DNA from: Owenia fusiformis
Lineage: Eukaryota > Annelida > Polychaeta > Sabellida > Oweniidae
DNA: 64,000 nt
Direction: 5' to 3'
Assembly: GCA_903813345.2 (NCBI GenBank)
Contig: CAIIXF020000003.1
Location: forward strand, 2,694,109 to 2,758,108
In this document: piece after piece, positions 2,861 to 40,918 of the stretch
How positions within the stretch are numbered: position 1 is the first letter of the stretch
Layout of the letters: the number at the start of each line of letters is the position of its first letter
Made by a program: the position numbers and the translations under genes
Notes under the pieces: generated by a model
What the model saw: only the letters and a program-made list of their open reading frames with translations
The model's database searches: none
What the model was told of the DNA's origin: nothing

Positions 2861-3796
2861 AGGTCACTGGCATGTAGCGGTCCTGATATCGATACATTCT
2901 ACACGCAATAAAACCAGATACCTGCGTGTGATTAAAACTACATGTTAGAGCGTCGATATCCTACAAATCCTATTTTTTCATAAAAATATTTTTTCATGAA
3001 ATCCAATCGAAGGGTGAAGATAAAACGATCTTTTAGGTAAAACAGCTTTACATGATCTGGTGATGTGTTTTCATAAATTTTTTCATAAAAGACCATTCTC
3101 GGTTTGGAGAACAAAGTTCGTCACTCTAATTGAGCGTTATCCCTGCTTCGGACAAATTTGATTTTTTTACATAATATAGATTTGAATGTCTTCTTTTGAA
3201 TAGTCATAGTTTAATTTGGGTAATATTTCTAGATTTTTCATATAAAAATTACTAGTGAAACACCCAACGTCGCTTTTATGATTCGTACCACTTTTTTAAC
3301 TTGGTGTATTGCATATTTCCGTGGGTTGATTTGAAAAAAAGACAAACAACGTATACATGAATATGTCATAAGCATATAGTGAGATAATTGTTAGATTAGG
3401 TTTGCTATAAATGACTTTAAAACAAAAAAATAAAAAACATTAGTTCACGTGTTAAAGTCCCATTGACCACGACATCAAGGAAAATTGAGTTTTTTGTCAT
3501 CAGACATCTTTATAGATGGAACTAGCTATGTACTACATTTTTAAATACACTCACATTGTACATGTAGCTGTAATATCTAAGATGTTATTTTTATTGATGA
3601 AAAGATTCTTACATACTAAAGTTACATTAAAATATCAATTGCAATAGCCACCTGTTTTTAACATCCCTTTGTCACTCATCCCTTAATTATCTCTGTGTAT
3701 CTTAAACGTGTGTGTGTTCGATGTTGATAGCACCCGAGTGCAACCTAAGGAGCACATACAATACATTTTGTGTATGCCCAGTCTGGCCGCCTTATA
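2861..3796. other. Spacer between family A arms, no gene seen
   Basis: AT-rich sequence with no splice-bounded open frame. Around 2970-3080 it carries phrases such as 'tttttcatgaaatccaatcgaagggtgaa' in shortened form that echo the outer part of family A, so a decayed extra fragment of that family is likely. Confidence 0.4.
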
Positions 3797-4883
3797 CGAG
3801 GGGTGATCAATAAGTAATGGACGCTTTTTTACACAGATACTTTTTATAGACCAATCCCTTTGATTTTCCTACCAGTGATACATCATTCAATTATCTATCA
3901 ATTCTGAAGATTTGAAGACAAAATATACAATACATATTGATATATCCTTATTTCCATGAAGGAGGTACAGGTACCCCGGGACCGACATTTACGTCACATA
4001 TTCAATTTTTAGCCAGTTTGGTAAATTTCAGTTACATTTGAACTTTTTATATGCAACACGTGTTGTGTTGTTTGAAATTTTTTGCTGACTGGTAACACAT
4101 AAACAGAAAGTATTGTAATGTCAGAGTGTTGTATGGAAGGGGTTTGCAGGTCAGTTTGAGAAAGCATTGTGGAAGAAAGGGGTGGTGAGAGAAGGGAACA
4201 CCCTACTCCATATGGGCAATGCACCTGCCCACAGATCTCAAAATGTTCAGAAAACAATATCCCTGGACCTCAAAATTGAGCCCTTGACCAATGCACCATA
4301 TTGTCCAGATCTGCTCACATGTGACTTGTTTATTTCTATACTACTTATTTCTATAGAGAAAGGACGCAGGTTTATTGACATAGTTGAAATAAAACAACCC
4401 GTGCAACTGCATCTTGCTACCATGTCATAGAACGGATTCAGCCTTGTCTCACAATCTTGAGTAAAGAGGATGAGGAATTGTGTACATGTAGCACTTGATG
4501 GAACCTATTTAGAGGGCCCTGTGGAATGAATGTGGCATCGAATACCACATAGTAATGATAAAATATTCAAAATCAACTATGGCATAACAAAATGGGGTAA
4601 TTCATGACCATAATGGTTTGTTTTGTTCAGCCTGCATTCAACTGCATTGCATGTTAAACAATCTAAAATAGCTTCAGAATATGTGACGTAAATGTCGGTC
4701 CCGGGGTACCTGTACCTCCTTCACGGAAATAAGGATATATCAAGATGTAATATATATTTTGTCTTCAAATCTTCAGAGTTGATACATAATTGAATGATGT
4801 ATCACTGGTAAGAAAATCAAAGGGATTGGTCTATAAATAGTATCTGTGTAAAAAAGCGTCCATTACTCATTGATCACCCCTCG
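3797..4883 (+). mobile_element. Mariner-type DNA transposon relic with ~207-bp terminal inverted repeats
   Basis: The ends are cgaggggtgatcaataag and its complement, flanked on both sides by the TA duplication expected for Tc1/mariner elements. Inverted repetition runs inward for about 207 bp (3797-4003 against 4677-4883). Between the arms, 4167-4350 on the plus strand encodes the end of a mariner transposase: LLHMGNAPAHRS followed by APYCPDLLTCDLF, matching the family pattern HDNAPAH...YSPDLAPCDFF. The Asp normally before NAPAH is Gly, the spacing to the next catalytic Asp is about 30 residues rather than 34, and the N-terminal half is missing. The element is therefore dead or non-autonomous. 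Confidence 0.85.
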
Positions 4884-7800
4884 TATCTGCCTGCACCGAG
4901 AAATGGGCGCAGCTTTGACAATTAACGAATGATATAACGATATCACGGATTTCACCGAATGTTATTCATCCCTAAATAGCTTTTTTATTTAGTCTTATGA
5001 TCCGACTGATGTTTCAATTTTTTGCAGTGACTCTGAAATTGCTGCGCCAGATATGACATCACAGCGACTCATTTTCCTACATTTAAATCACTAAACTAAA
5101 TCAATTGAAACATAATCATTAAAGAATGAGGACCTTGTATTTTACTTTGGACGAGGGTAGTGGCCATGTCTTGGCATGGCTAGTTGTGCATTAACATTTG
5201 ATACTGTTGTGCGGATAAAAATAATGAATATATGTTAAAGTAGCACTAAACAGATACTTTTAAAGTTAAAAGAATATAGTTACATTTAAAGAATGGGCCC
5301 AACGAATAGATATTGAATATAGGACTCGTTTGATGAAACGTTCGTTCTTTTAATTCTAATAAACCTAGAAATCAATCAACGATTAAGTAAATTGACAAGA
5401 CTTCATGTTCAAGTTGGCTGAATTTCGTGTAACTTAACTCTGTTATGTTTCTAGATTTTACATATGGAGAACAGAATTCGAAATCATAATCACAATCGTA
5501 TTTTAAGGCAAATAGGCCATGAATATGCTTTTAGTTACACGGTGGATGATCAAATTAACACATTTTGGATGTTGAATTTCATTTCAAGTTCATTCGAATT
5601 TACGCATTATCGTGGGAAAGCCCATGGCATTATCCAATAAAATTGATATATATACTGTCTAGGCTGAGACTAACATATATAATGTTATTTAATGTATTTA
5701 ATATACAGGATATATCTGAGAAAGTTATGCAATATATCTACACGAGAAATAGTAGGGACCGAGGGTTGATATATTACCTTTACCTGTCGAAAATCGAGTA
5801 TAAACTATGAGGATTAGATACGCATTGAATGTAATGGAACCGTCATGTAATAATTAGAAATGATAATCACAATCAAATCATGAATATTTTATCTAGATTT
5901 AAAGTGCTTAAGATTTATTTTTAAAACTCAACCGAACTATTAACATTTAAAAGCACCGAACGAATTTTCTGGGGATTGCTGATGAGCGGGTGGGATGGGA
6001 TGGGAGGGATAAAATGAAATACTAGATAAAATATTGATACCTTTACGCATGTCAATCTCAAATTAGAATGCATATATCATTATCTCTTTTATTCTTCTGT
6101 ATTGTAATACGATAGTCTGATTATTGCCAATATCCTATACATGAAATAATGTACAACGTGTATTCTACATTGAATAACAAACGAAATAAAACTCATCTTT
6201 GTACGAATTTATTTTTCATATGACACAAAGTAACATAACATTGTTATATGTTGCATTTACGACTACTACAGCAAATCAGAAAATTCGTACAATATCAAAC
6301 GTAAGAGTTGTTCACAAATACATTGGTATTTTGATATGAGTATCATGTAGTATTAAAATATTAAAATCATATGATCAGCAAGTTTATAAGCTTAATATTG
6401 TATTGTTTTTTATTTAAGTGTCGCATGCTTAATTTCATACATATACATCTGTACAATCATCCAAAAAGCCTCGAGCCACCAATGGCTAATGAGACACTGC
6501 TAATCAAAATAAATCATATAATATTATATAATAAGATGCATAATATGAGTCAGTTGCAGAAATAGGATTATAAATAAAGCAAAGTTCATGACCTCTATTA
6601 CGAACATTGTTTGATGAACTCGATCACTCAGTCAGTTGTTGAACATATGCAAATGTGGTCAGGTTATAAATATAAGTACAATTTAAGTCCATGATATTTT
6701 CACATATTGAACATAACACTCAGTTCACAAAGAGATGTATACAAATCTAATCCACAAGTAGAAATGATTGTTTCATGCTGTTTATGCATTGTGTATAAAC
6801 TGTAATCCAAAACATGAATAAAGTGGGTAAGAGGTGGTTGTATGATGGCCCATAAAATCACATTATGTAACACCGGCACCCTGGTTCAATATAGTGCAGT
6901 GGCCCATGTTTGATATACGTACATCAAAACTCATGTTTTTTCAAGGAAAGAAGCTAGATTAGTGATATATTGAAAAATCAAACTACTATACCCCAATACT
7001 GTAGCCCGTATTTCTTTAAAAGGAATACAGGCTACACTGAAGTTGCAAATGGAAGACCTTTGTTTATTTCCATAGTTCTGGAGGAATACTAGATTTTACA
7101 TTGTATAGATTCATCGAGCAGTTTGCAACGCACTATCACCAGAAAAGTCCTATGGAAAAGGATAAAGAATACCCGCTCTATTTGCAACTTAACTGTACCC
7201 TGTATTCTTTTTAAATGTGTTCACGTGGTAGGGTAGTGTGATACTCCCTCTGCCTATGCCTACATCGTTCAATCTTTTTTTATAGTATAACGCCTTATTA
7301 ATACAACAGTTATTGAGCTGTTAAGAAAACATACTAACAAACAAACCACCGAGTTTAGAGTAAGACATATACATGTATTGTTCTATTATCAAATCATATA
7401 TTGTGTCCCAATTCTAAAACGTTAACAGTTTATGGTGTACAATAAAACTATTACTATTAACCACTTTAATATATTTAGACATAAAATATCAAGTTACTCA
7501 TCAGCCAACAAATCTCAAAATATCGAAAAATGAAAAATACGAGATACTTGTTCACTCAAATCTAGGAGTCAATTGGTAATGTGTACCTATAGATAGTTCT
7601 CAAAGTAAATGAGCAAAAGCGTAACATTTGTATGTAGCATGCTTCATAAAACACTAAACTTAGCCCAAAAAGTAAGCGTGCATTTTGTTCCTGGCACTGA
7701 TTGGTTAATAAGTGAATACAATTCGTTGAATGCACGATGCACTCAAAAGATTAGCAGCTGGGAAAGGCTATTGAACAAAAAGTACGCTTTCGTACTCAAA

Positions 7801-11901: not shown

Positions 11902-12160
11902 GACTCGCAAGAGACGCTCTTGCTTGAGCCTCTATAGGGCAAGGAAAAAATAGCGAAAGCCAATGAAAGTGAAAATGATTGTAATGAAGAGGCAAAGGAA
12001 GAAATTAGTAACAACGAACAGGCGACGGAAGAAAACAACTCCAAATTAATTGATGATGTCATGAGTGACATTAGACATATATTACCATTATTACAAATCA
12101 TATTTAGCTGTTTATGTCACCATCTTCATAATAGTACAATAACGTCATTTCTGCGGGCAA
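11902..12160 (+). pseudogene. Exon-like acidic coding fragment inside the 11321-13064 element
   Basis: A good acceptor (tttgttttcag, ending 11901) is followed by an open frame starting DSQETLLLEPL, then an in-frame TAG, then GKEKIAKANESENDC and a Glu/Asn-rich stretch ending near DDVMSDIRHILPLL. The frame then runs into the hairpin at 12138 and stops. The composition (many Glu, Asn, Lys) differs strongly from the AT-rich surroundings. It could be a captured host exon or the remains of the element's own gene. I do not recognise the protein. Confidence 0.45.
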
Positions 12161-12238
12161 TATAGTGAAATATTGGACCAAGGGCCGCAGGCCCAAGGTC
12201 CAATATTTCACTATTTTGCCCGCAGAAATGACGTTATT
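12138..12238. repeat. Near-perfect 100-bp hairpin with GGCC-GCA-GGCC apex
   Basis: The left arm from aataacgtcatttctgcggg pairs with the right arm ending in aaatgacgttatt, with only two or three mismatches over about 49 bp. The apex is ggcc gca ggcc. It sits at the 3' edge of an exon-like fragment. Its design (long stem, short GC-rich apex) resembles the hairpins at 15875, 18741, 21184 and 21735. Confidence 0.85.
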
Positions 12239-15840: not shown

Positions 15841-15874
15841 ATACAATATGTATAGGATAACCTTTGATTTGAGG

Positions 15875-15972
15875 GATATCATTTTTATCCACGAGTTTAT
15901 ATCAATATCTGGACGAGTGAGCGTAGCGAATGAGTGCAGATATTGGTATTAACGAGTGGAATAAAATGATAT
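15875..15972. repeat. Hairpin with conserved GAGCGNAGCG apex (copy 1)
   Basis: Arms gatatcatttttatccacg and the complementary cgagtggaataaaatgatatc region pair closely. The unpaired apex (15912-15936) is gagtgagcgtagcgaatgag, the same motif found in the hairpins at 18741, 21184 and 21735. Confidence 0.8.
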
Positions 15973-16000
15973 CACGAATAAATCATACTAGCGTGTTCTA

Positions 16001-17648
16001 CAAGGGGCGATCAATATATTCTGATAAAAATGCTCTCATTTTGCTATTTTTTCACATATCCCTTTTATATTTTCAGAAAATATAGATTATGTAATTACAC
16101 ATACAATGCTCAAATATCATAATAACTTGTTATTTTAATTATTTTGAAGCATGCGGAAATCATGCATTTTTTAAAAAAGGTTGGTATTTTTCTTGTTGTT
16201 TGTTGTTAAAGATTCTCGCAATCTTTATCCAATCAGCGTTTGCGACGTGTACCGGCTCATGTATAAAAGGCGAATCAAACTCAAATCCATGCAGGGGTGT
16301 ATGAGGTACTCGAATAGGAAAGAGCTCGTGAAATCTGAATTTATATGCACATGTTCAATGTTTACACATGTTTGGAGTTATTAAAGAAAATGTGATATGG
16401 GTGTGATTCCGAATTTGAAGTCATTGCTGGAAAATATGATTTTAATACGTGAAATTATATCTATAAATACATCACTAAAAATAACAGTACACATGAAGTA
16501 CATGTATGATTGTGTCAAGAAATGTTTGAAACCCTTACGGAAAATTCTGTCTGCATTTTGTCACCATTGCTCTTTCTTCCCGCATTCTAGTGCTGTTTGA
16601 ATGAATATATTTATTAATGCATTTCTAACTAAAATATATGATATTTTTTTCATAAACCACAAACATTTAGATCATAAAAAAATTATTCAATACTTGAGTG
16701 AGCACGATATGCAAGGGTTACAAAGTTGACACAGTAAATGACCACTGATATTGTATTAGTTCATGCACACAGCGTATTCTGCTAATACACATTTGCTAAC
16801 ACCCCTCACTTTCATAATGAAGTGACTAATTGGTTTATGTTTACGTTTTAATGTGTTTTGTGTTCCTTGTTACAGCAAGGGGGCCAGTAAAGTAGACTAA
16901 CATGTTTGCATGGCAAGTTTTGATCGAATATGTGAGACACTTTAAACAAATGTTTATTCGTGATCACTATAACATCACAACAACTCACAATAGCAATGTA
17001 TGACAGGATGGGCAAATTGGGATTACATGTCATGAGACACACCAAATATCAACATGACAGATCAGATGAGGTTAGTGCGGCTGTTGCAGAGTGTGAAATT
17101 AACAGATGCATTAGGAGTACCACTTAGCTTTTATGTACTATCAAGAATAAGTAAGAGGACACCGCCAGAGACATACATGAACTCGTATAGTGTATGGACA
17201 AGGTGTTAGGCTAGTCTCTGTTGGATAAATCCCAATCTGGTTGCAAGAAGAGCTTGCGGTATAGAACACTAAAATAATTTGAGATGCAATTTATGAAAAA
17301 AGACCTATTCTACAGTGGAAATAGCAAACAAGGGCAACAGGGGTATGGAGCATTTCAACGAATAGTTGGCAATGACCTGGATATGTTTTTGATCTGCTAT
17401 AGGTACCGAGGAATGATTAAATTAACAAAATCTATTTTATACGTTATAATTTAACTGACCTGCCTACCCTAAATACAGGTTACCATGGCAATCTTATCTT
17501 GAAAAAAATTTAAGATCAAGCTATACTATTTTAGCATTGTATGAGTAATTACATAATCTTCAAGTTGATCTTCTGAAAAAATGAGAGGGATATGTGAAAA
17601 AATCACAAAATGAGAGCATTTTTATCAGAATATATGGATCGCCCCTCG
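16001..17648. mobile_element. Mariner-like element with GGGGCGATC ends and TA duplication
   Basis: The left end caaggggcgatcaatatatt and right end aatatatggatcgcccctcg are inverted repeats extending inward for about 75 bp ('ttctgataaaaatgctctca' and complement). TA lies outside each end (15999-16000 and 17649-17650). The end sequence is related to the mariner relic at 3797. The interior (about 1.5 kb) has no recognisable transposase on either strand, so it is a non-autonomous derivative or carries unrelated filler. Confidence 0.75.
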
Positions 17649-17660
17649 TATAATTAGAGG

Positions 17661-17774
17661 TTATGTCACTATCGTTGCATTTATGCCCGAGGTTTTCAGT
17701 GATATATGGCCCGACCTTGGGAGGGACATTAATCACTGAGAACCGAGGGCATATGTGCAACGATAGTGACATAA
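17661..17774. repeat. 114-bp near-perfect hairpin
   Basis: The arm ttatgtcactatcgttgca pairs with tgcaacgatagtgacataa, and the pairing continues through 'tgcccgaggttttcagtgat'. The apex region is gcccgaccttgggaggg. It directly abuts the TIR element at 17780, as the 12138 hairpin abuts an exon fragment. Confidence 0.85.
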
Positions 17775-17779
17775 ACGAT

Positions 17780-18289
17780 TTATAACATACCTATGGTGAT
17801 GCCGGCTGGTCAGAGAGTACTGTTTTCTTATCTAATTGACTAGCAATGGTTCGAAAATAATGATTTATTTCCATGTTTATATCTTCTTACGAATGTTCAA
17901 GTCATTTTGACCGAATGACGTAATGTATTCCTACGCGAATACTGACCGATCAACTCTGGAGATAAAACTAACCGATCAACTGGTTTTCGATTTTCTACTG
18001 GATTTTTCTTGCTGTTCAACAAACTGTCGAATATGTTCACGTTTTACAGACAGGTCTTCCAGTGAATCATCATCAAAAAATTGCATTAATTCATCGAAAT
18101 CATCGAAACCTCCGGCGAAATCCATTTTTTGTTTATGATTTCGGCAGTAAGAAAAGTACCCGGATGTTGGGAAAGTAGTCACAGCGCTTGACCAATCAGA
18201 GAGTTACCGGGCGCGGGCTTTTCAAAAGTTATATTGGCCCGCTGTCTAGTGTACAGTTTACATTATACATCGTCATAGGTATGTTATAA
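17780..18289. mobile_element. 510-bp TIR element carrying a promoter-like region and a 5' gene fragment
   Basis: The termini ttataacatacctatggtga and the complementary tcataggtatgttataa (18273-18289) form an inverted repeat of about 22 bp with two mismatches. Inside, on the minus strand, there is an inverted CCAAT-type word (gattggtc), a GC-rich patch (gcgcccgg) and then an ATG-initiated frame. It has the look of a small non-autonomous element holding the 5' end of a gene. Confidence 0.6.
17976..18125 (-). pseudogene. Acidic 49-codon N-terminal gene fragment
   Basis: The ATG at 18125 has an A-rich Kozak context (aaaaaATGG). The frame begins MDFAGGFDDFDELMQFFDDD, passes SVKREHIRQFVEQQ and ends at TAA-free DNA with TGA at 17976 after a basic SRKSKTS. 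An acidic head followed by a short helix and a basic segment recalls the start of Crypton-type tyrosine-recombinase proteins; this is only a resemblance from memory. No downstream exon is present within the element. It is either a truncated element gene or a captured host first exon. Confidence 0.4.
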
Positions 18290-18431
18290 TTTACCTTACA
18301 AAGCATTTCAAAACAATGCACGTCACATTGGCGGGAATTTTCAAATTTCAAGAAAAAGGGATATCAGTGGAATATTCTCCGTATTCGACAGATATCGCTT
18401 TTTCCACATATTTACAAATATCATAAATATA

Positions 18432-18637
18432 CAGGGTGTGCCAAAAAACTGTCTTGTTGAAAGATAAAATCTTCACTATATGTTCGTTTTATGTCTTTTA
18501 ACAGACCCCTTTTGAGTACTTATTGATAAAAAAAAACATTGAAATTCATAAACAATAAGTAAATCACACAAGTCAATGTACCATATTGAACGTAACTATT
18601 TTAATCCCGATTTAAAGCTGTTTTTTGGCCAACCCTG
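18432..18637. mobile_element. 206-bp MITE with CAGGGTG ends and TA duplication
   Basis: The left end cagggtgtgccaaaaaactg and right end cagctgttttttggc...aaccctg (reverse related) are flanked by TA at 18430-18431 and 18638-18639. It is too short to code. Ends of this form are typical of Tc1/mariner-derived MITEs. Confidence 0.75.
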
Positions 18638-18740
18638 TATTAACGTGTTATTCAGAATTCACTTCAACAATGGGATAATAATATAATATGATATAATATA
18701 ATGTAATGAATGCAATATTATGTAATATAATATAATTATA

Positions 18741-18902
18741 GGTTATTTCATGCTTGATTTTCAATATGAATAACTTTATTCCAGGGTAACATGATTTTGA
18801 CCGAGGGAAATATGACACTGACCGAATGAGCGTAGCGAGTGAGTGTCAATATAATATTTCCCGTGGTATAAATTAATATTGAAAATCCAGCATGAAATAA
18901 CC
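18741..18902. repeat. Hairpin with conserved apex (copy 2)
   Basis: The arm ggttatttcatgcttgattt pairs with aatccagcatgaaataacc. The inner stem is less regular because of about 30 extra bases on the left. The apex gaatgagcgtagcgagtgag (18823-18842) is the shared motif, here in the opposite orientation to copies 3 and 4. Confidence 0.75.
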
Positions 18903-19335
18903 GTTTTATTCCATAATTTAATAATTGAGAATTCAAGGGAAAAGAAATATTTTAAAAAATTGAAACAATGAACATTTTTGAAAAAAAATTGAAAAGTATT
19001 GGAAAAATGAAAATGTTTGAAAAAAAGATTCAAAAATGATTTTTTTTTTGTAATAAATAAAATCTTTGAAAATTGCAAGTTTTTGAAAAATAAAAATTTC
19101 TGAATTTTTTTTTCCAAAACTAGAAAAAATCTAATTTTTGAAAAATTTAAAAATCTAATTTTTGAAAAATTGGAAAAACTGATTTTTGAAAAAATGAACT
19201 TTTTTTGAAAAAAGGGACAATATGATTTTCAAGTATATATGTTTTTTTCCAGGGACAATATGATTTTTCGAGTATATATGATTTTAAGAGGGATAATTAT
19301 AATTTTATTTTCCAGGGAAAACAGTGGTATTATGG
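18903..19335. repeat. Degenerate (TTTTTGAAAAA) low-complexity tail
   Basis: Words such as ttgaaaaa, tttttgaaaaatt and aaaaattgg repeat irregularly. The block starts with ttattccataa and ends with ttatggaataa, so it is bounded by its own small inverted repeat. A similar low-complexity block precedes the hairpin at 21735, suggesting a two-part element. The long minus-strand open frame here is compositional only. Confidence 0.65.
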
Positions 19336-19512
19336 AATAATATAATGTATTATTATATACTCCATATGTATGCTAGCTCATTGGCTTATTCATGGTCACA
19401 TGATATGAAAAAGATGAAGTAATTCCATGCAAAGTTCTAAATTCCTGCTATCAGGGAAGATGAAATGTCCTTATCACCAGTTAGGTCATGTGGACAGGCA
19501 TTTGTATGTATC

Positions 19513-20153
19513 ACGCCCGGTGATCGTACAAATGGGATGGAGGGGGGGGGGATTAGGCGATTTATATGTCTTTACGATAGAACAAACTCACAAGAACTGT
19601 ATTTAAAAAAAAACTCAGTACCCCCGTAAGAAACTGGATATTATATCTCTGGAGAATAAAAATGGGAAAATTTGGAGTCATAAGAATAAATTCAAGTAGC
19701 ATGTCTTATCATGTCTTAAATTCACGTTATCCCCCTTCCATCCGATCCCCCCTCCCCCCGATCCCCCCTCCCCCCGATATTAATTTATTTCAATTATTTT
19801 TTGTATAACGCATGAAAACTAATTTTAAAAAGTGAGTAATGTCATTAGTATTGTGATAATAACGTCCCTTATACCTATTTATTACAGGTCGTGTAGACCA
19901 TTTTTGCCCGATTTATAGCAAAAACATTGACGTTTGCACGTTGGTGATAATGGGTCTTTCTTCTCATATCTTAGAAGGGTATCAGTTCAAAAAAATACTA
20001 GATGACCTAACATATTTTGCCATGCACTGCGTCTATTCATTTGGCAATTAAGTTGTAAATTTCTCTTGAAAAAATAAATCTTCCATATTTGTTGAGTTTT
20101 CTTGCAAAAATCGCCTTATCCCACTCCATCCCATTTGTACGATCACCGGGCGT
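19513..20153 (+). mobile_element. Family B element, copy 1 (CGCCCGGTGATCG ends, G-rich core)
   Basis: Inverted ends acgcccggtgatcgtacaaa and the complement at 20134-20153 enclose 641 bp. Next to the left end is a run of about ten G, and at 19731-19776 there are five-to-six-C runs separated by 'tccgat' or 'gat'. Sequence blocks in this copy reappear in a different order in the copies at 40173 and 50055. No coding sequence. Confidence 0.75.
19731..19776 (-). other. G-quadruplex-capable tract
   Basis: On the minus strand there are at least four runs of five or more G separated by one- to four-base spacers (ggggggaggggggatcgggg and onward). That satisfies the usual G4 pattern. Confidence 0.75.
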
Positions 20154-21111
20154 GTGTATATCTTCCCTGATAGCTGAGCTTATAAGAGTTGAAAGGCAAA
20201 ATACCTTTAAATGCCAAGAAGAACCTGTCAACCTTAAATTTTGAAATGAAAATACTTCCCATTTTGTTTTTGTAAAGAATACACATGAAGTATACAATAA
20301 AACAAATACTCACTGCCTCATTTTCGGGAAATAGTGTAAACATTTTCCCCTCGGAATATCCTGTGCATCCTGTGCATCGTGACATGTTGCCTTGGCCTGT
20401 AGCCGCGGAGGACAGGATATTCCATCAGGAAAAATAGTTTGCACTTTCCCTCAATGGCAGTCACTATTTGAATAATAAAATAAGTATAAGCTGTTCCATT
20501 TATCCTATAGTTTAACCATGGACGTAGGCCTTTTGGTATACGTCCATGACCTAACAAAGCATTGCAAAACAACATTCAGTTTTATTTTGTCATTTGAACT
20601 GTCAAAACATAAATCATTTTCATTGTGACGTCATAAAATCACCATTTTAGCTCGTGTGTCAATGCACATCACATTGGCAGTTTTCAAATCCGTGGAAAAA
20701 ATTGATATCTGTGGAATATTCTCCTTTATCCCACGATTAATGTGTTATCTGTACAATAACAGCTATTGATATTTCTGATATTATCGAAATCCGTGTGATA
20801 TTTTCCAGAAAATCGTTTATCAAACTCATATGCGTGTGATATCGTTTATCTCACGCATATCCATGTGATATCACATTTGCATTTCGCGCCACAATATTGT
20901 TGGGAATTGGGTCAGATAATTTATTCTCTTTTGAGAAAATAGGTCCGTTAATTTATTCTCTTTAAGTTTCATTGGTGTATTGAATTACGATTGTGTATAT
21001 AATTTGCTTAGAAGGCTGCTAACTAACGATTAAAAAAGGTATTTATGACGAACTATATCATGTACAGAAAGTAGTGCATATTACTGCGCAGTAAGTAAAG
21101 TACAAATCAAA
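20154..21111. other. Palindrome-rich non-coding stretch
   Basis: Contains a small hairpin (20517-20549, catggacgta...tacgtccatg). At 20640-20735 the text resembles 18290-18400 ('aatgcacatcacattggc', 'gatatctgtggaatattctc'). A group of 'gtgatatc' palindromes lies at 20760-20880. No gene apart from the fragment that follows. Confidence 0.5.
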
Positions 21112-21189
21112 ATGGCCGGTGCGAATTCGTCTGACGAAGAATTAAAAATTAAAATAAAAAAACATCACAAGGTGATTGTAATCATGGGA
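21112..21189 (+). pseudogene. Truncated 5' coding end abutting a hairpin
   Basis: The ATG lies in a good context (caaaATGGCC) and opens MAGANSSDEELKIKIKKHHK. The frame runs six more codons and stops at TAA where the hairpin at 21184 begins. The short CpG-containing start differs from its surroundings. It may be a genuine first exon cut off by the hairpin insertion or the start of the element's own decayed gene. Confidence 0.35.
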
Positions 21190-21350
21190 TAAACCCAATA
21201 TCACATAATTTCTCGTGATATCATTTTATCGCCTCGTAGATATCAAATATCAACACTCATTCGCTTCGCTCACTCGTGTTGATATTTGATATCAACTCGG
21301 CGATAAAAATGATATCACTCAAAATGATGTGATATTCTGTATTATCCCAT
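21184..21350. repeat. Hairpin with conserved apex (copy 3)
   Basis: Arms run from atgggataa to ttatcccat, with inner pairing of gatatcattttatcgcc and ggcgataaaaatgatatc and of tatcaaatatcaacac and gtgttgatatttgata. The apex ctcattcgcttcgctcactc lies at 21256-21275. The motif is nearly a mirror repeat: read backwards it is ctcactcgcttcgcttactc. Confidence 0.85.
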
Positions 21351-21436
21351 GGTTGCAAGGATATAGATCGAATATCACATGAAGATATATTTGATATGTG
21401 GATCAAGATATCATATTTTAGCAAAAAATTCACAAA

Positions 21437-21545
21437 CCATCGAATATCACTTTTAAACTATCGAATATCACGTCTTAGAAAGTGATATTCGATGGTTTGA
21501 AAAGTGATATTCGATGGTTTGAAAAGTGATATTCGATGGTTTCGA
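21437..21545. repeat. 22-bp repeats of gtgatattcgatggtttgaa in both orientations
   Basis: Three direct copies at about 21480-21545 are preceded by two inverted copies ('aaaccatcgaatatcac', 'aaactatcgaatatcac'). This gives an inverted cluster that can fold back. Confidence 0.75.
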
Positions 21546-21710
21546 ATTTTTTCAAATTTTTTTTACATTTTTTAATTATTTTCAAAAATATTTCAAAAAA
21601 ATTCAAAATTTCAAAAATAATTTCAACATTTTTTCACATTTTTTTCAATTTTTTTTCATTTTTTCAAAATTTTTCTCAAATTATATTTTTCAACTTTTTT
21701 CGCTGATGAT
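21546..21710. repeat. Low-complexity TTTTTCAAA tract
   Basis: T- and TTTTC-rich words recur without a fixed period. This is the counterpart of 18903-19335. The open frame over it is compositional (Phe/Lys/Ile/Asn). Confidence 0.6.
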
Positions 21711-21734
21711 GATTTTCCATGGGATAAACGGACA

Positions 21735-21869
21735 ATCCTATGGTTTTTCAAAAATATCAATTATATCCACTCATGGATACAAATATCTTCACTCATTCGC
21801 TGCGCTCACTCATGAAGATATCAATATCCATTCATGGATATAAATGATATTTTTTCAAAACCATAGGAT
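21735..21869. repeat. Hairpin with conserved apex (copy 4)
   Basis: atcctatggtttttcaaaaa pairs with ttttttcaaaaccataggat, and inner 'gatatcttc'-like segments pair around the apex ctcattcgctgcgctcactc (21792-21811). Confidence 0.85.
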
Positions 21870-22142
21870 ATTCCTATATTATTCTACAGATTTGACCTCA
21901 GCTAAGGGATAAGATGTTATATAATATATTATCACATACTATGTAAAAATCTAGTATTTTGATTTGTTGCTTTCTATGCCGTATTTCCCGTATCAAATGA
22001 ATTTCCTATGATCCGAGCACACGAACCACACGTTGTCTATAATAACGAAATGACGTCATACAACTTCATTCTATTCTTTCCTAATTCAAAATGACGTCAC
22101 ATATTGCCTATGTTATAATTTCATTTTTCGGACTTGTTGTTC

Positions 22143-22939
22143 TGGGTTGTTCTGGTTTATATCACAAGCCAATGAGGCTTGTAAAGGAGGAGGGAAGTTA
22201 GCGCAACAGATTTCGGACAGTCATATGTTGGATTTTGGCCATTTTCTGAGGATTTTAACAATTGCATATATTAGGCCAATGCATTTCCTCCAGGAAAATC
22301 ACTTCTAGAGATGATAAAATAATTTCGACTTGGAGACAGGTTAGATGCAAACAACCCACCCACATGTTTTTTCTGAAATGTTTTCCTGATTTTCAACCCC
22401 TTCCATCCCTGCTTTTTTAATTTTTCTTGCATCAATATGTTGCATTTTGACAAATAGTTAACCACTTTAAAGGAATAAGTGATTCCTTCAGGGGTTTTAA
22501 AGATACCCATTATTGGTGACCAAACTTAGCTGAAAGCAATGATTTTTCCTATGGGAAAATAACATGGGGAATATTGTTTTCCACTTTATCTAAAAGGAAT
22601 CATTTATTCCTTTTAAAGGATTAACTATGTGTCAAAACGCAACATATTGATGCAAGAAAAATTAAAAAAGCAGGGATGGAAGGGGTTGAAAATCAGGAAA
22701 ACATTTCAGAAAAAACATGTGGGTGGGTTGTTTGCATCTACCCTGTCTCAAAGTTGAAATTATTTTATCATCTCTAGAAGTGATTTTCCTGGAGGTAATG
22801 CATTCTCCTAACATATGCACCTGTTTAAATTCCCAGGAAATGGCCAAAATCAAACATATGACTGTCCGAAATCTGTTGCGCTAACTTCCCTCCTCCTTTA
22901 CAAACCTCATTGGCTTGTGATATAAACCAGAACAACCCA
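22143..22939. repeat. 797-bp palindrome with arms of ~346 bp
   Basis: The left arm starts tgggttgttctggtttat and the right arm ends in its complement at 22939. Pairing continues inward through 'aaggaggagggaagttagcg', 'gtgggtgggttgtttgcatc' and 'aaaaagcagggatgg' to about 22488 / 22594, with a loop of about 105 bp. A handful of mismatches indicates moderate age. No coding content is recognised. It is a foldback-type element or a head-to-head duplication. Confidence 0.85.
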
Positions 22940-27200: not shown

Positions 27201-30200
27201 GAAACATGTTAAATATGTTACTAGGTTTGATCTTCCAGGGCAAACGTTTAGAAAGTTTGGTCAAGCTGAATAATGTTCCAATTTTTTGGACCACCCTGTA
27301 TATAGCAAGTGCACTTCAAGGGTTTAATTGTCATTACTGACTCAACTTTTGTTAAAAGCTCCTACTATAACAAACTTCCCAGATTTAGTTAGAGGATTAC
27401 AAGTGACACACCCGATAGAATGTACAAATCACTAAACCCTTACATCATAATTACAAATAAAACTTCCTAGGGAAGCCAAATCAAAAAACGGACTTCGAGA
27501 TATGACAAAGCAGATGTTGAAGAACTAAATAGAGGTATCTTTGAAATTAACATCAACAACAGAGATGATCAGAGTGTGACGAAATCCCTATGAACAAATA
27601 TTTCCCCAAATTTTCGAAGAAACCATCTCAAATAAAATAACCACTTTTAGCTCAAAGAATCAGCCGTGGTTAAATAATTGCACCAATAATATTTTCGACT
27701 TAAGTCAAAAGCATATGAACGCTTCAAAAATTCAAAAGACTCTGTAGGTCATGAATTTTACAAAGAAAAGGCCAAAATAATTCGTGATAAAATAACTGAA
27801 ACCAAAGAAAACTACTATTCCAAGACTTGTGTAAAACATTTCAACTGAAAACACCTTTATAAAGAAGCTCTTGAACTGAACATTGTATAATGATTTCCCT
27901 ACTTCTTGACATTATTAGGGTTAAGGTAGTACTGAATAGTATGTCAGCCTTTTTCTACATTCAGACTTCCCTTAAAAATCTTGGTTGAGATAAATTGATG
28001 TTTAACAAAATATGTGGAAATTAGAAATATTGACTGTTTAGTTATTTCTAAAAAAATGTTTTATTTCAAATAGAAAATACTTTCTTATATTTATAAACCA
28101 TAAATGTATAAATGTATAAAAACCATAAATGTATAAAAATAAAAGAAATGATAAAAAATGAAAATAAAATTGTTGCGGCGGAACTCGAACCAGCATCCTT
28201 ATTGCTAAGAGTTACACTATTTATTCTTGTTCAACGAGAGCTTAAACGAGAGAAGGATCTATGATGTGCGAAATCACTGTACAATAGTCACTGAAAGACT
28301 ATCTTAATGTACGATATTTATATTAAACTTTTATTTAACACTGTTCAACACATTCTTGGAATCCACCTATTCACACCGTGTATTCGTAAACTAATGGCAA
28401 CATTGTTTTCCTAGATCCAGTTGATGTAGCAATTGTTAATTAGAACTACATCGATTGAAACAGTAGACACTATTAAAGTTTTAGGATATAAATATGTACC
28501 TCGTGTAGTTGTTGTTGTTTGTGGTTCAGTTGTTGTACTTGGTCCAGTTGTTGGAGTTGTTGTTGTACTTGGTCCAGTTGTTGGGGTCGTTGTTGTACTT
28601 GGTCCAGTTGTTGGGGTCGTTGTTGTACTTGGTCCAGTTGTTGGGGTTGTTGTTGTACTTGGTCCAGTTGTTGGGGTTGTTGTTGTGCTTGGTCCAGTTG
28701 TTGGAGTTGTTGTTGTACTTGGTCCAGTTGTTGGGGTTGTTGTTGTACTTGGTCCAGTTGTTGGAGTTGTTGTTGTACTTGGTCCAGTTGTTGGGGTTGT
28801 TGTTGTACTTGGTCCAGTTGTTGGGGTTGTTGTTGTACTTGGTCCAGTTGTTGGGGTTGTTGTTGTACTTGGTCCAGTTGTTGAGGTTGTTGTTGTACTT
28901 GGTCCAGTTGTTGGGGTTGTTGTTGTACTTGGTCCAGTTGTTGTTTGTGGTCCAGTTGTTGTACTTGGTACATCTTCTTGAAAGTGCACACAAAACTCGC
29001 CTCTGCAGCCTTTGGCTACCCACATGTACCCTGTTCTATAATCAAAGTTCCATCTGTCGTTCATCGTACATCGGGTCCTGGAATACAGATCTCTAACATT
29101 CATTTCTTGGATTCCTGAAACAAATATGTCGTTCCCAGTCCGATGTCTTCTGACAAACTTTAAGTTTACATCTATCTATCATACTGTAAAGTATGTATGG
29201 ACATTTCATTAACTTCTAGGAAACGGACATACACTGTACTTTCATGTTTGTATGATGGTATTTAAGGTTTTATGTTTTTTACTGAATTTATAATGGAGTT
29301 TATTATATATCTCTCTTTATTTCCAATTTAGCATGGAGTACAAAAATGTTAAACATTTAACAGAGCTGTGAGCCTAATTTTAGTGGAGTCAGTTGGCTGT
29401 TCAATTGCACATGCTATATCATTTTAGTATCATGAATACATATATTTTTCATATCTAACGAAGTGGTGTTGAAAAGTGGCCCCAGTTGATAAAAGCATTT
29501 TTGTAAAATATAATATGAACTAAAAATGGTGCTACATATATAGCATGTGCAATTCTAAGGTTTTATAGACCCAACTGACTCAACTATCTGTGCAAGTTCA
29601 AAAGTTAAGGCTAACACAAAAACACACGTTCTTTGCAAAGGTCCATGTGCAGTATGGCAAGTGATTTTAGACAGCCATATCTTTCACCATGAGTACTTTC
29701 TGGCCATAAATACAGTGTTTTTCATTAAAACAATATGTTTTCTTTCAAGTGAAGTCCCAATGATAGTAAAATATCAATTCAACTCTCTGAATGAACAATT
29801 TCTGAAAAGGGGATGGTTATTGAAATGGGTTATTAAAAGTTAAACCACATATCCCATATTGTTTGATTTATATTTTTATCATCGGACAGACGGACAGACA
29901 GACGGACAAGTAAGTGATTGCAATGAATCACCACGTGAGCTAAAAAGAAAGGGTGATTGGGGATAGAGGTGCAAAGGTATGATAGTAGAAAGTTGATGCC
30001 AATAGAAATGAAACAATATTGACCATGACTTTGTGCTCTTCTATCGCAACATCCATGTCTAAAATTAAAGAAATGGGATTTAAACTGACCATACCTTGAT
30101 ATTTGTGTCTCGAGGGTTACATTATGAATTGACATCGATGCCAAGAATGGTTTGTCGTCGAACAAAGGACACGTAACGTTCCTCCATCTCCTACTTGCAC

Positions 30201-40172: not shown

Positions 40173-40918
40173 CACGCCCGGTGATCGTACAAAATGGATG
40201 GAGGGGGGGGATTAGGCGATTTCTGCAAGAAAACTCAACAAATTTGGAAGATTTATTTTTTCAAGAGAAAATTTACAACTGAATTGCCAAATGAATAGGC
40301 GCAGTGCATGGCAAAATATGTTAGGTCATCTAGTATTTTTTTTTGAACTGATACTCTTCAAAGATATCAGATCTATTAAAAAAGGCGCATCATCACCAAC
40401 GTGCAAAAGTCAATGTTTTTGCTATAAATCGGGCAACAATGGTCTACAAGACCTGTAATAAATAGGTATAAGGGACGTTATTATCACAATACTAATGTCA
40501 TTGCTCACTTTTTAAAGTTAGTTTCCATGCCTTATACAAAAAATAATCGAAATAAATTAATATTGGATGGAGGGGGGGAGTGGATGGAGGGGGGGATTTA
40601 TATGTCTTTACGATGGAACTAATTCACAAGAACTCGTGTATTTGAAAAAACTAAACTCAGTACCCCAGTAAGAAACTGGATATTATATCTCTGGAGAATG
40701 AAAAATAGGAAAATTTCGAGTCATAAGAATAAATTCAAGTATCATGTCTTATCATGTCTTACATACACGTGATCCCCCCCTCCATCCAATCCCCCCCTCC
40801 ATCCAATATTAATTTATTTCGATTATTTTTTGTATAACGCATGGAAACTAACTTTAAAAAGCGAGCAATGTCATTAGTATTGTGATAATAACGTCCCTTA
40901 TACCTATTTATTACAGGT
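40173..40918 (-). mobile_element. Family B element, copy 2 (rearranged)
   Basis: Starts cacgcccggtgatcgtacaa. Blocks seen in copy 1 occur here in a different order, and the block ending tatttattacaggt occurs twice in inverted orientation (40448-40566 and 40800-40918). Two G-rich stretches of 'gatggagggggg' type flank the middle block. The expected right terminal repeat is missing. Confidence 0.75.

Follow-up and report, generated by a model that had tools for sequence, protein, structure and literature searches.

In a 64,000-nucleotide stretch of the Owenia fusiformis genome (assembly GCA_903813345.2, contig CAIIXF020000003.1, positions 2,694,109 to 2,758,108; hereafter the window), four hairpin elements, termed E1 to E4, share the same tip. 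One strand, purine-rich at the apex, reads as a single hairpin, with a GC-GNA-GC tip (N, any base), GA facing GA beside it, and GA facing GA again ~22 and ~44 pairs outward. E1, E3 and E4, and possibly E2, are copies of one family with a core of ~112 bases, extending in E3 to pairing over 183 bases. With a probability of about one half, we read these elements as a foldback family resembling miniature inverted-repeat transposable elements (MITEs), in which the purine strand has been kept able to fold when single-stranded. We infer the function of the family, and DNA rather than RNA as its acting form.

Four hairpins share one tip

A search of the window with the 20-base apex pattern, allowing up to three mismatches, returned four matches, compared with a mean of 0.01 in 100 shuffled windows. 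Inverted repeats enclose all four, confirming the initial annotation of a common apex at the tips of four hairpins. The window has an A+T content of 66% and contains seven GCGNAGC heptamers, four of which are the apices of E1 to E4. The E2 tip lies ~11 bases away from the midpoint of the outer arms of that element.

On the purine strand, the tip reads C-GA-RT-GA-GC-[GNA]-GC-GA-RT-GA-G, with the outermost C replaced by T in E4. N is T, T, A and C in E1, E2, E3 and E4, respectively. When the two arms are opposed, GA faces GA and R faces T on both sides of the centre. The near mirror symmetry of the apex, pointed out in the initial annotation, is evident from these letters and would follow from the opposition of such an arm to itself, since a GA-rich sequence set antiparallel to its own copy is nearly unchanged when read backwards. 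Opposed GA steps in a pyrimidine-GA-purine setting form sheared pairs in both DNA and RNA. Exceptional stability is reported for DNA mini-hairpins in which two G-C pairs carry a GNA loop, GCGAAGC having a melting temperature of up to 78 degrees (PMC4686876). All four tips consist of GC-GNA-GC with a free N, and the position that varies among E1 to E4 is exactly the free base of GNA, which supports a structural reading. The tip would be a GNA-capped DNA mini-hairpin, lengthened by GA facing GA on either side of R·T pairs.

Opposed GA steps also occur along the stems (Table 1). In strict register and without gaps, they lie at distances of 30-31 from the centre in E1 and E4 and 31-32 in E3. A gapped scan placed outer steps at 52-53 in E1 and at 53-54 in E3 and E4 (52-53 on one arm of E3), the pairing of E1 stopping with a gap immediately outside this step. 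By hand count, E2 has GA on the left arm (29-30) and GT on the right arm (30-31), about where the other elements have GA facing GA. In a scan of two-base mismatch runs in 12 window hairpins, which ignored G·A and did not include E2 and E4, GA/GA on either strand accounted for 3 of 13 runs (E1, E3 and a hairpin at 17661).

Table 1. Positions of the four elements, their tips and their opposed GA steps (window coordinates)
Feature	Position	Strand	Details
E1 core hairpin	15869..15980	+ (purine strand +)	centre 15924; DNA fold z -8.1
E1 tip GARTGAGCGNAGCGARTGA	15915..15933	+	N = T
E1 GA step, left arm	15893..15894	+	faces 15954-15955; distance 30-31
E1 GA step, right arm	15954..15955	+	distance 30-31
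E1 outer GA step, left arm	15871..15872	+	faces 15976-15977; distance 52-53
E2 divergent hairpin, same tip	18741..18902	+	tip centre 18833
E2 tip	18824..18842	+	N = T; R bases of the two arms swapped
E3 hairpin with outer arms	21176..21358	-	centre 21266
E3 tip	21257..21275	-	N = A
E3 GA step, 5' arm	21297..21298	-	faces 21234-21235; distance 31-32
E3 outer GA step, 5' arm	21319..21320	-	faces 21213-21214
E4 hairpin	21730..21874	-	centre 21802; 62-base arms, 82% complementary
E4 tip	21793..21811	-	N = C
E4 GA step, 5' arm	21832..21833	-	faces 21771-21772; distance 30-31
E4 outer GA step, 5' arm	21855..21856	-	faces 21748-21749; distance 53-54
Apex match	15915..15934	-	pattern search
Apex match	18824..18843	-	pattern search; 2 mismatches
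Apex match	21256..21275	+	pattern search
Apex match	21792..21811	+	pattern search

Three of the stems are related and retain pairing

Compared on the strand with the purine-rich apex (alignment A3), E1, E3 and E4 gave 115 aligned columns with a mean column identity of 85%, and a MAFFT alignment extended the likeness of E3 and E4 beyond the core. Judged by this alignment, the three are one family. The initial annotation had described the stems as unrelated. This is wrong for three of the four, and the alignment rules out unrelated stems with a common apex in the genome for E1, E3 and E4; the arms of E2 are divergent from theirs. The outcome that the initial annotation had set against its own proposal, that all stems form one ordinary MITE family, has thus largely come about, with the more divergent E2 standing apart. 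E2 may be a divergent member of the family. A model built from E1, E3 and E4 (R1) returned 38 rows in the window up to E 5; hairpins at 12135 (67.2 bits), 21430 (48.9 bits), 17665 (46.2 bits) and 32425 (36.2 bits) all outscored E2 (34.7 bits), so R1 does not prove the membership of E2, and we claim none of the others as members.

The elements resemble foldback MITEs in that several copies are related, each having long inverted arms and lacking coding capacity. Each end of E3, and one of the two ends of E4, carries a CATGGGATAA-like sequence, an occurrence equalled in 4 of 100 window shuffles; none was seen at E1. A Pfam scan of five open reading frames (ORFs) of the window yielded two matches, each of which fell short of its cut-off and was not to a transposase.

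A3 contains 42 pairs, with 95.2% of cells paired, a value that falls to 29-46% when the partners are slid. Ten of these pairs are changed on both sides, compared with a shuffled mean of 4.0, and none of 500 shuffles reached as many. Between individual copies, both-side changes that keep pairing number four (E1/E3), six (E1/E4) and nine (E3/E4), compared with five, seven and three differing pairs, respectively, that are unpaired in at least one copy. Changes on the left and right arms coincide above chance in each comparison (hypergeometric P 0.001, 0.0002 and 0.000004 in the same order). By these counts, the stem changes are largely compensatory. Folded as DNA, the purine strands of E1, E3 and E4 gave z values of -8.1, -11.8 and -8.6 and their complements -5.7, -12.8 and -8.1. 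In terms of minimum energy, the more stable fold is that of the purine strand in all four elements.

Among 15 listed ORFs of at least 110 amino acids, none overlaps E1, E3 or E4. The sole overlap with an element is that of a low-complexity frame, read from stop to stop (18776-19228, - strand), with E2, and the apex as a coding part of a long ORF is unsupported. ARAGORN detected no transfer RNA (tRNA) in the window, and Rfam models gave no match there at the gathering score. A phage origin was rejected, the only blastn match being a single distant one (E 0.6).

The tip recurs in viral and prokaryotic sequences

The exact apex with N free was found in 19 prokaryotic contigs, two of them from one species, with ~2 matches expected in 257 Gb of random sequence. 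In IMG/VR, GARTGAGCGNAGCGARTGA occurs in 62 contigs, compared with one for the reversed sequence, one for the tip with one GA step broken and none for a perfectly Watson-Crick-paired tip; the sole reversed match itself overlaps a tip (L080). N in the IMG/VR tips is A in 28, T in 23, C in 7 and G in 4. A GAN-loop control matched 35 viral contigs, 28 of which have the GAA loop matched by both patterns and 7 a GAT loop, so that the third base of the loop allows some variation. The proposal in the initial annotation that the apex is a structural signal is supported, and in a more specific form: the purine strand spells a GNA cap with opposed GA steps, and the viral tip is far commoner than its reversed, broken and paired controls.

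Pairing extends into the flanks of the viral tips. In 41 non-redundant viral contexts, counted after similar flanks had been collapsed, a mean of 5.15 of 12 positions are paired, compared with 3.13 after shuffling (standard deviation 0.23; a value not reached in 5000 shuffles). Among the two-base mismatch runs that lie beyond the tip in 49 viral contexts, GA/GA is more frequent than any other (12 of 85, compared with 4 for AG/AG and 2 for TC/TC). Between co-oriented neighbouring genes, as defined by a crude ORF caller, tips lie in the sense and antisense orientation in 12 and 7 viral cases, 2 and 1 prokaryotic-contig cases and 2 and 2 Halorubrum cases. The sum, 16 sense and 10 antisense, favours neither DNA nor RNA. 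Tips inside crude ORFs of at least 80 codons (sense/antisense: viral 2/9, prokaryotic contigs 0/7, Halorubrum 11/7) allow no conclusion, because TGA stops occur in two frames of the purine strand and a large share of such ORFs is doubtful.

In 12 Halorubrum genomes, the pattern GANNGAGCGNAGCGANNGA was found 198 times, compared with 15 times for its reverse, and 146 times compared with 12 without G003 and G004, two genomes that had been reached through the motif. The GA letters in these counts are fixed by the search pattern, and only the bases between them are informative. Of the 150 copies listed, 131 have complementary bases at these sites (146 with wobble), compared with a shuffled mean of 36 and maximum of 50; the 150 copies are drawn from the 198, come from 8 of the 12 genomes and are in many cases one dispersed element rather than independent. 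With two mismatches allowed, four Halorubrum genomes gave 72 matches, 57 of them distinct, and the reversed control 3. Mismatches in the 72 fell on GA letters 7 times (8 sites), on inner pairs 36 times (4 sites), on the loop G/A 12 times (2 sites) and on outer letters 39 times (7 sites). Pairing survives in 17 of the 19 inner pairs that have changed.

Halorubrum also carries a dispersed hairpin element of ~105 bases, GGGGCAG...CTGGGGC, built around the same tip and with covarying pairs, seen in 18 of loci L022-L051. In the alignment of these copies (A2; 18 of 30 loci, chosen by eye), all 18 fold into a more extended hairpin, in which 19 of the 38 predicted pairs have changed on both sides; here too, the search pattern fixes the GA letters of the tip. 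Rfam searches of 19 loci of Halorubrum and others returned three tRNAs only and no match to this element. At L043, the tip lies ~70 bases past an Rfam tRNA match; at L041, a tRNA-like TTCAAATCC segment adjoins the tip, with no Rfam match there.

Broader sets gave 264 matches compared with 23 reversed in the class of G001 (29 genomes; 257 and 22 without G001), 15 compared with 1 in the phylum of G005 (120 genomes; 10 and 1 without G005) and 10 compared with 3 in 96 genomes of the phylum of G006. These sets include genomes reached through holding the motif, one set of nine genomes being wholly so chosen, and the group names of G001 and G003-G006 were taken from the titles of the source loci.

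Relation to known systems

Both the chemistry and the foldback form are already known. Foldback elements and MITEs are alike in being short and non-coding, with long inverted arms and several nearby copies; here, by contrast, pairing is kept as the arms change, and target-site duplications were not recognised. Among DNA duplexes, d(ATGAGCGAATA) has reportedly been studied for its tandem sheared G·A steps. Such duplexes have the letters T-GA-GC and GC-GA-A in common with the tip, whereas the geometry here is judged from letters and the steps recur along natural stems.

The d(GCGNAGC) mini-hairpin of PMC4686876 has the identical heptamer, with the free base in the same place and two G-C pairs. 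There it serves as an oligonucleotide that stabilises aptamers, whereas here it is a natural repeated tip extended by opposed GA. REP and REPIN sequences are likewise short palindromic repeats dispersed in genomes, and REPINs are described as miniature mobile DNA; they differ in being bacterial and reportedly tagged by other sequences, GTAG or CGTC (PMC3733652, PMC3116915). A Methanosarcina spherical virus (PMC10342651) has part of the tip: both terminal inverted repeats hold GGGGTGAGCGAAGCGAATCCCC on one strand, the inner core T-GA-GC-GAA-GC-GA-A within a G/C stem. It has the inner GA step only and forms a genome end rather than a dispersed element, and the available part of PMC10342651 contains no comment on the structure of this core. 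The promoter hairpins of the phage N4 virion RNA polymerase (PMC4496689) are strand-specific DNA hairpins with a sheared G:A in a protein-read loop; they are short promoters, and the accessible part of that paper does not mention tandem GA steps. Within the text available from open-licence PubMed Central, no description of the tip as a natural repeated element was found.

Other hairpins and repeats in the window

The window contains further foldback sequences. A hairpin at 12138-12238 has 49-base arms with 46 positions paired and a DNA fold z of -17.8 on the + strand; its GCA loop, again of the GNA form, is closed by C-G, and AA faces AA near its tip. In the hairpin at 17661-17774, GA faces GA both along the stem and close to the tip, and the apex differs from that of E1 to E4. 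Three longer inverted repeats lie at 22143-22488 / 22594-22939 (346-base arms, 94% complementary, 105 bases between), 3794-4003 / 4677-4886 (96% complementary) and 40451-40597 / 40772-40918 (97% complementary). An ORF on the - strand (28411-29175) has a cysteine-containing start followed by a long Thr/Pro repeat, with a weak DUF3011 match in Pfam, below cut-off. This frame, the scarcity of long ORFs and the character of the repeats fit an animal or another eukaryote.

Discussion

We propose that the opposed GA steps form tandem sheared G·A pairs and the tip a GNA mini-hairpin, as known DNA chemistry would predict. The purine strand, once single-stranded, would fold as a nearly unbroken helix, its complement carrying T·C mismatches. 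The duplex lacks a perfect Watson-Crick palindrome at its centre, which should hinder the initiation of a cruciform. Master copies would drift in stem sequence yet retain pairing and G·A steps. In the least certain step of this scheme, spreading lineages may need one strand to be foldable, either during replication or as the form used by a mobilising enzyme. The same tip in haloarchaea and viral contigs would then be structural convergence.

Several observations weigh against this proposal. Clear copies number only three, all from 64 kb of one genome, and since these are one family, common descent alone could account for the shared apex. No target-site duplication was recognised by eye, the ends of the elements not being exactly fixed, and no protein, mobiliser or single-strand intermediate was identified. 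The complement of E3 surpasses its purine strand by z (-12.8 compared with -11.8), the energy gap between strands is small (2.1 to 6.4 kcal/mol), and the folding parameters, which do not model the bare tip, assign it zero energy in isolation. The gapped scan that located the outer steps itself rewards opposed GA, and gaps in the pairwise change counts were placed by hand. In A3, all 12 GA columns (three steps) are invariant, compared with 56 of 84 paired columns (Fisher 0.016), a weak test because 8 of the 12 sit in the tip used to choose the copies. Beyond the window, flank pairing is weak in 15 prokaryotic-contig contexts (4.27 compared with 3.61 shuffled; 212 of 5000 as high). GA/GA outside the tip makes up 3 of 38 runs in the 19-contig prokaryotic set, where GG/GG is commoner, and with 1 of 45 two-base runs it shows no excess in Halorubrum. 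The phylum of G006 without G006 shows no clear excess (5 compared with 3).

The hairpin could instead act as RNA. The purine strand would then be transcribed and the family kept as an extended RNA hairpin whose G·A steps lie ~22 pairs apart, possibly the precursor of small RNAs. Covariation fits RNA equally well, RNAs also use tandem sheared G·A steps, and the ~22-pair spacing of opposed GA is near the size of animal small RNAs. We nevertheless regard this as unlikely: elsewhere the tip shows no clear strand preference between co-oriented neighbours (12/7, 2/1 and 2/2), Rfam is without a match in the window, and the GNA triloop is reported to be specially stable in DNA (PMC4686876).

The two remaining accounts give the tip no role of its own. 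An ordinary foldback MITE, with long terminal inverted repeats and an apex that is a short inherited spacer, would agree with the kinship of E1, E3 and E4 and with the CATGGGATAA-like ends of E3 (both) and E4 (one), although 4 of 100 shuffles match as often. Covariation in excess of shuffles, GA steps at corresponding distances, a free base that agrees with GNA and the reappearance of this tip in genomes without kinship speak against this account, which we consider improbable. Quite improbable, in our view, is that selection plays no part and that template switching or hairpin repair keeps the arms alike, with repair overlooking opposed GA. Such a process would yield compensatory changes and leave GA steps standing. 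That repair overlooks sheared G·A is, however, an assumption, and the process by itself accounts neither for the matching positions of GA/GA in three copies nor for the 62 to 0 excess in viral contigs of the tandem-GA tip over a perfectly paired one.

Recurrence of the tip in microbes and viruses suggests that the structure has been reached repeatedly in nature. A wider and more tentative idea, which we hold to be unlikely, is that animals, archaea and viruses repeatedly evolve a hairpin tip, a GNA cap with tandem G·A steps, in one strand of DNA only. Able to fold in the single strand yet poorly extruded as a cruciform, it would act as a switch specific to that strand, with proteins of replication, repair or mobilisation as its readers. 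If true, this natural, repeated use would give a single-strand DNA structure a recognisable sequence signature, and surveys limited to perfect inverted repeats, such as that described in the available part of PMC13155455, would overlook such tips.

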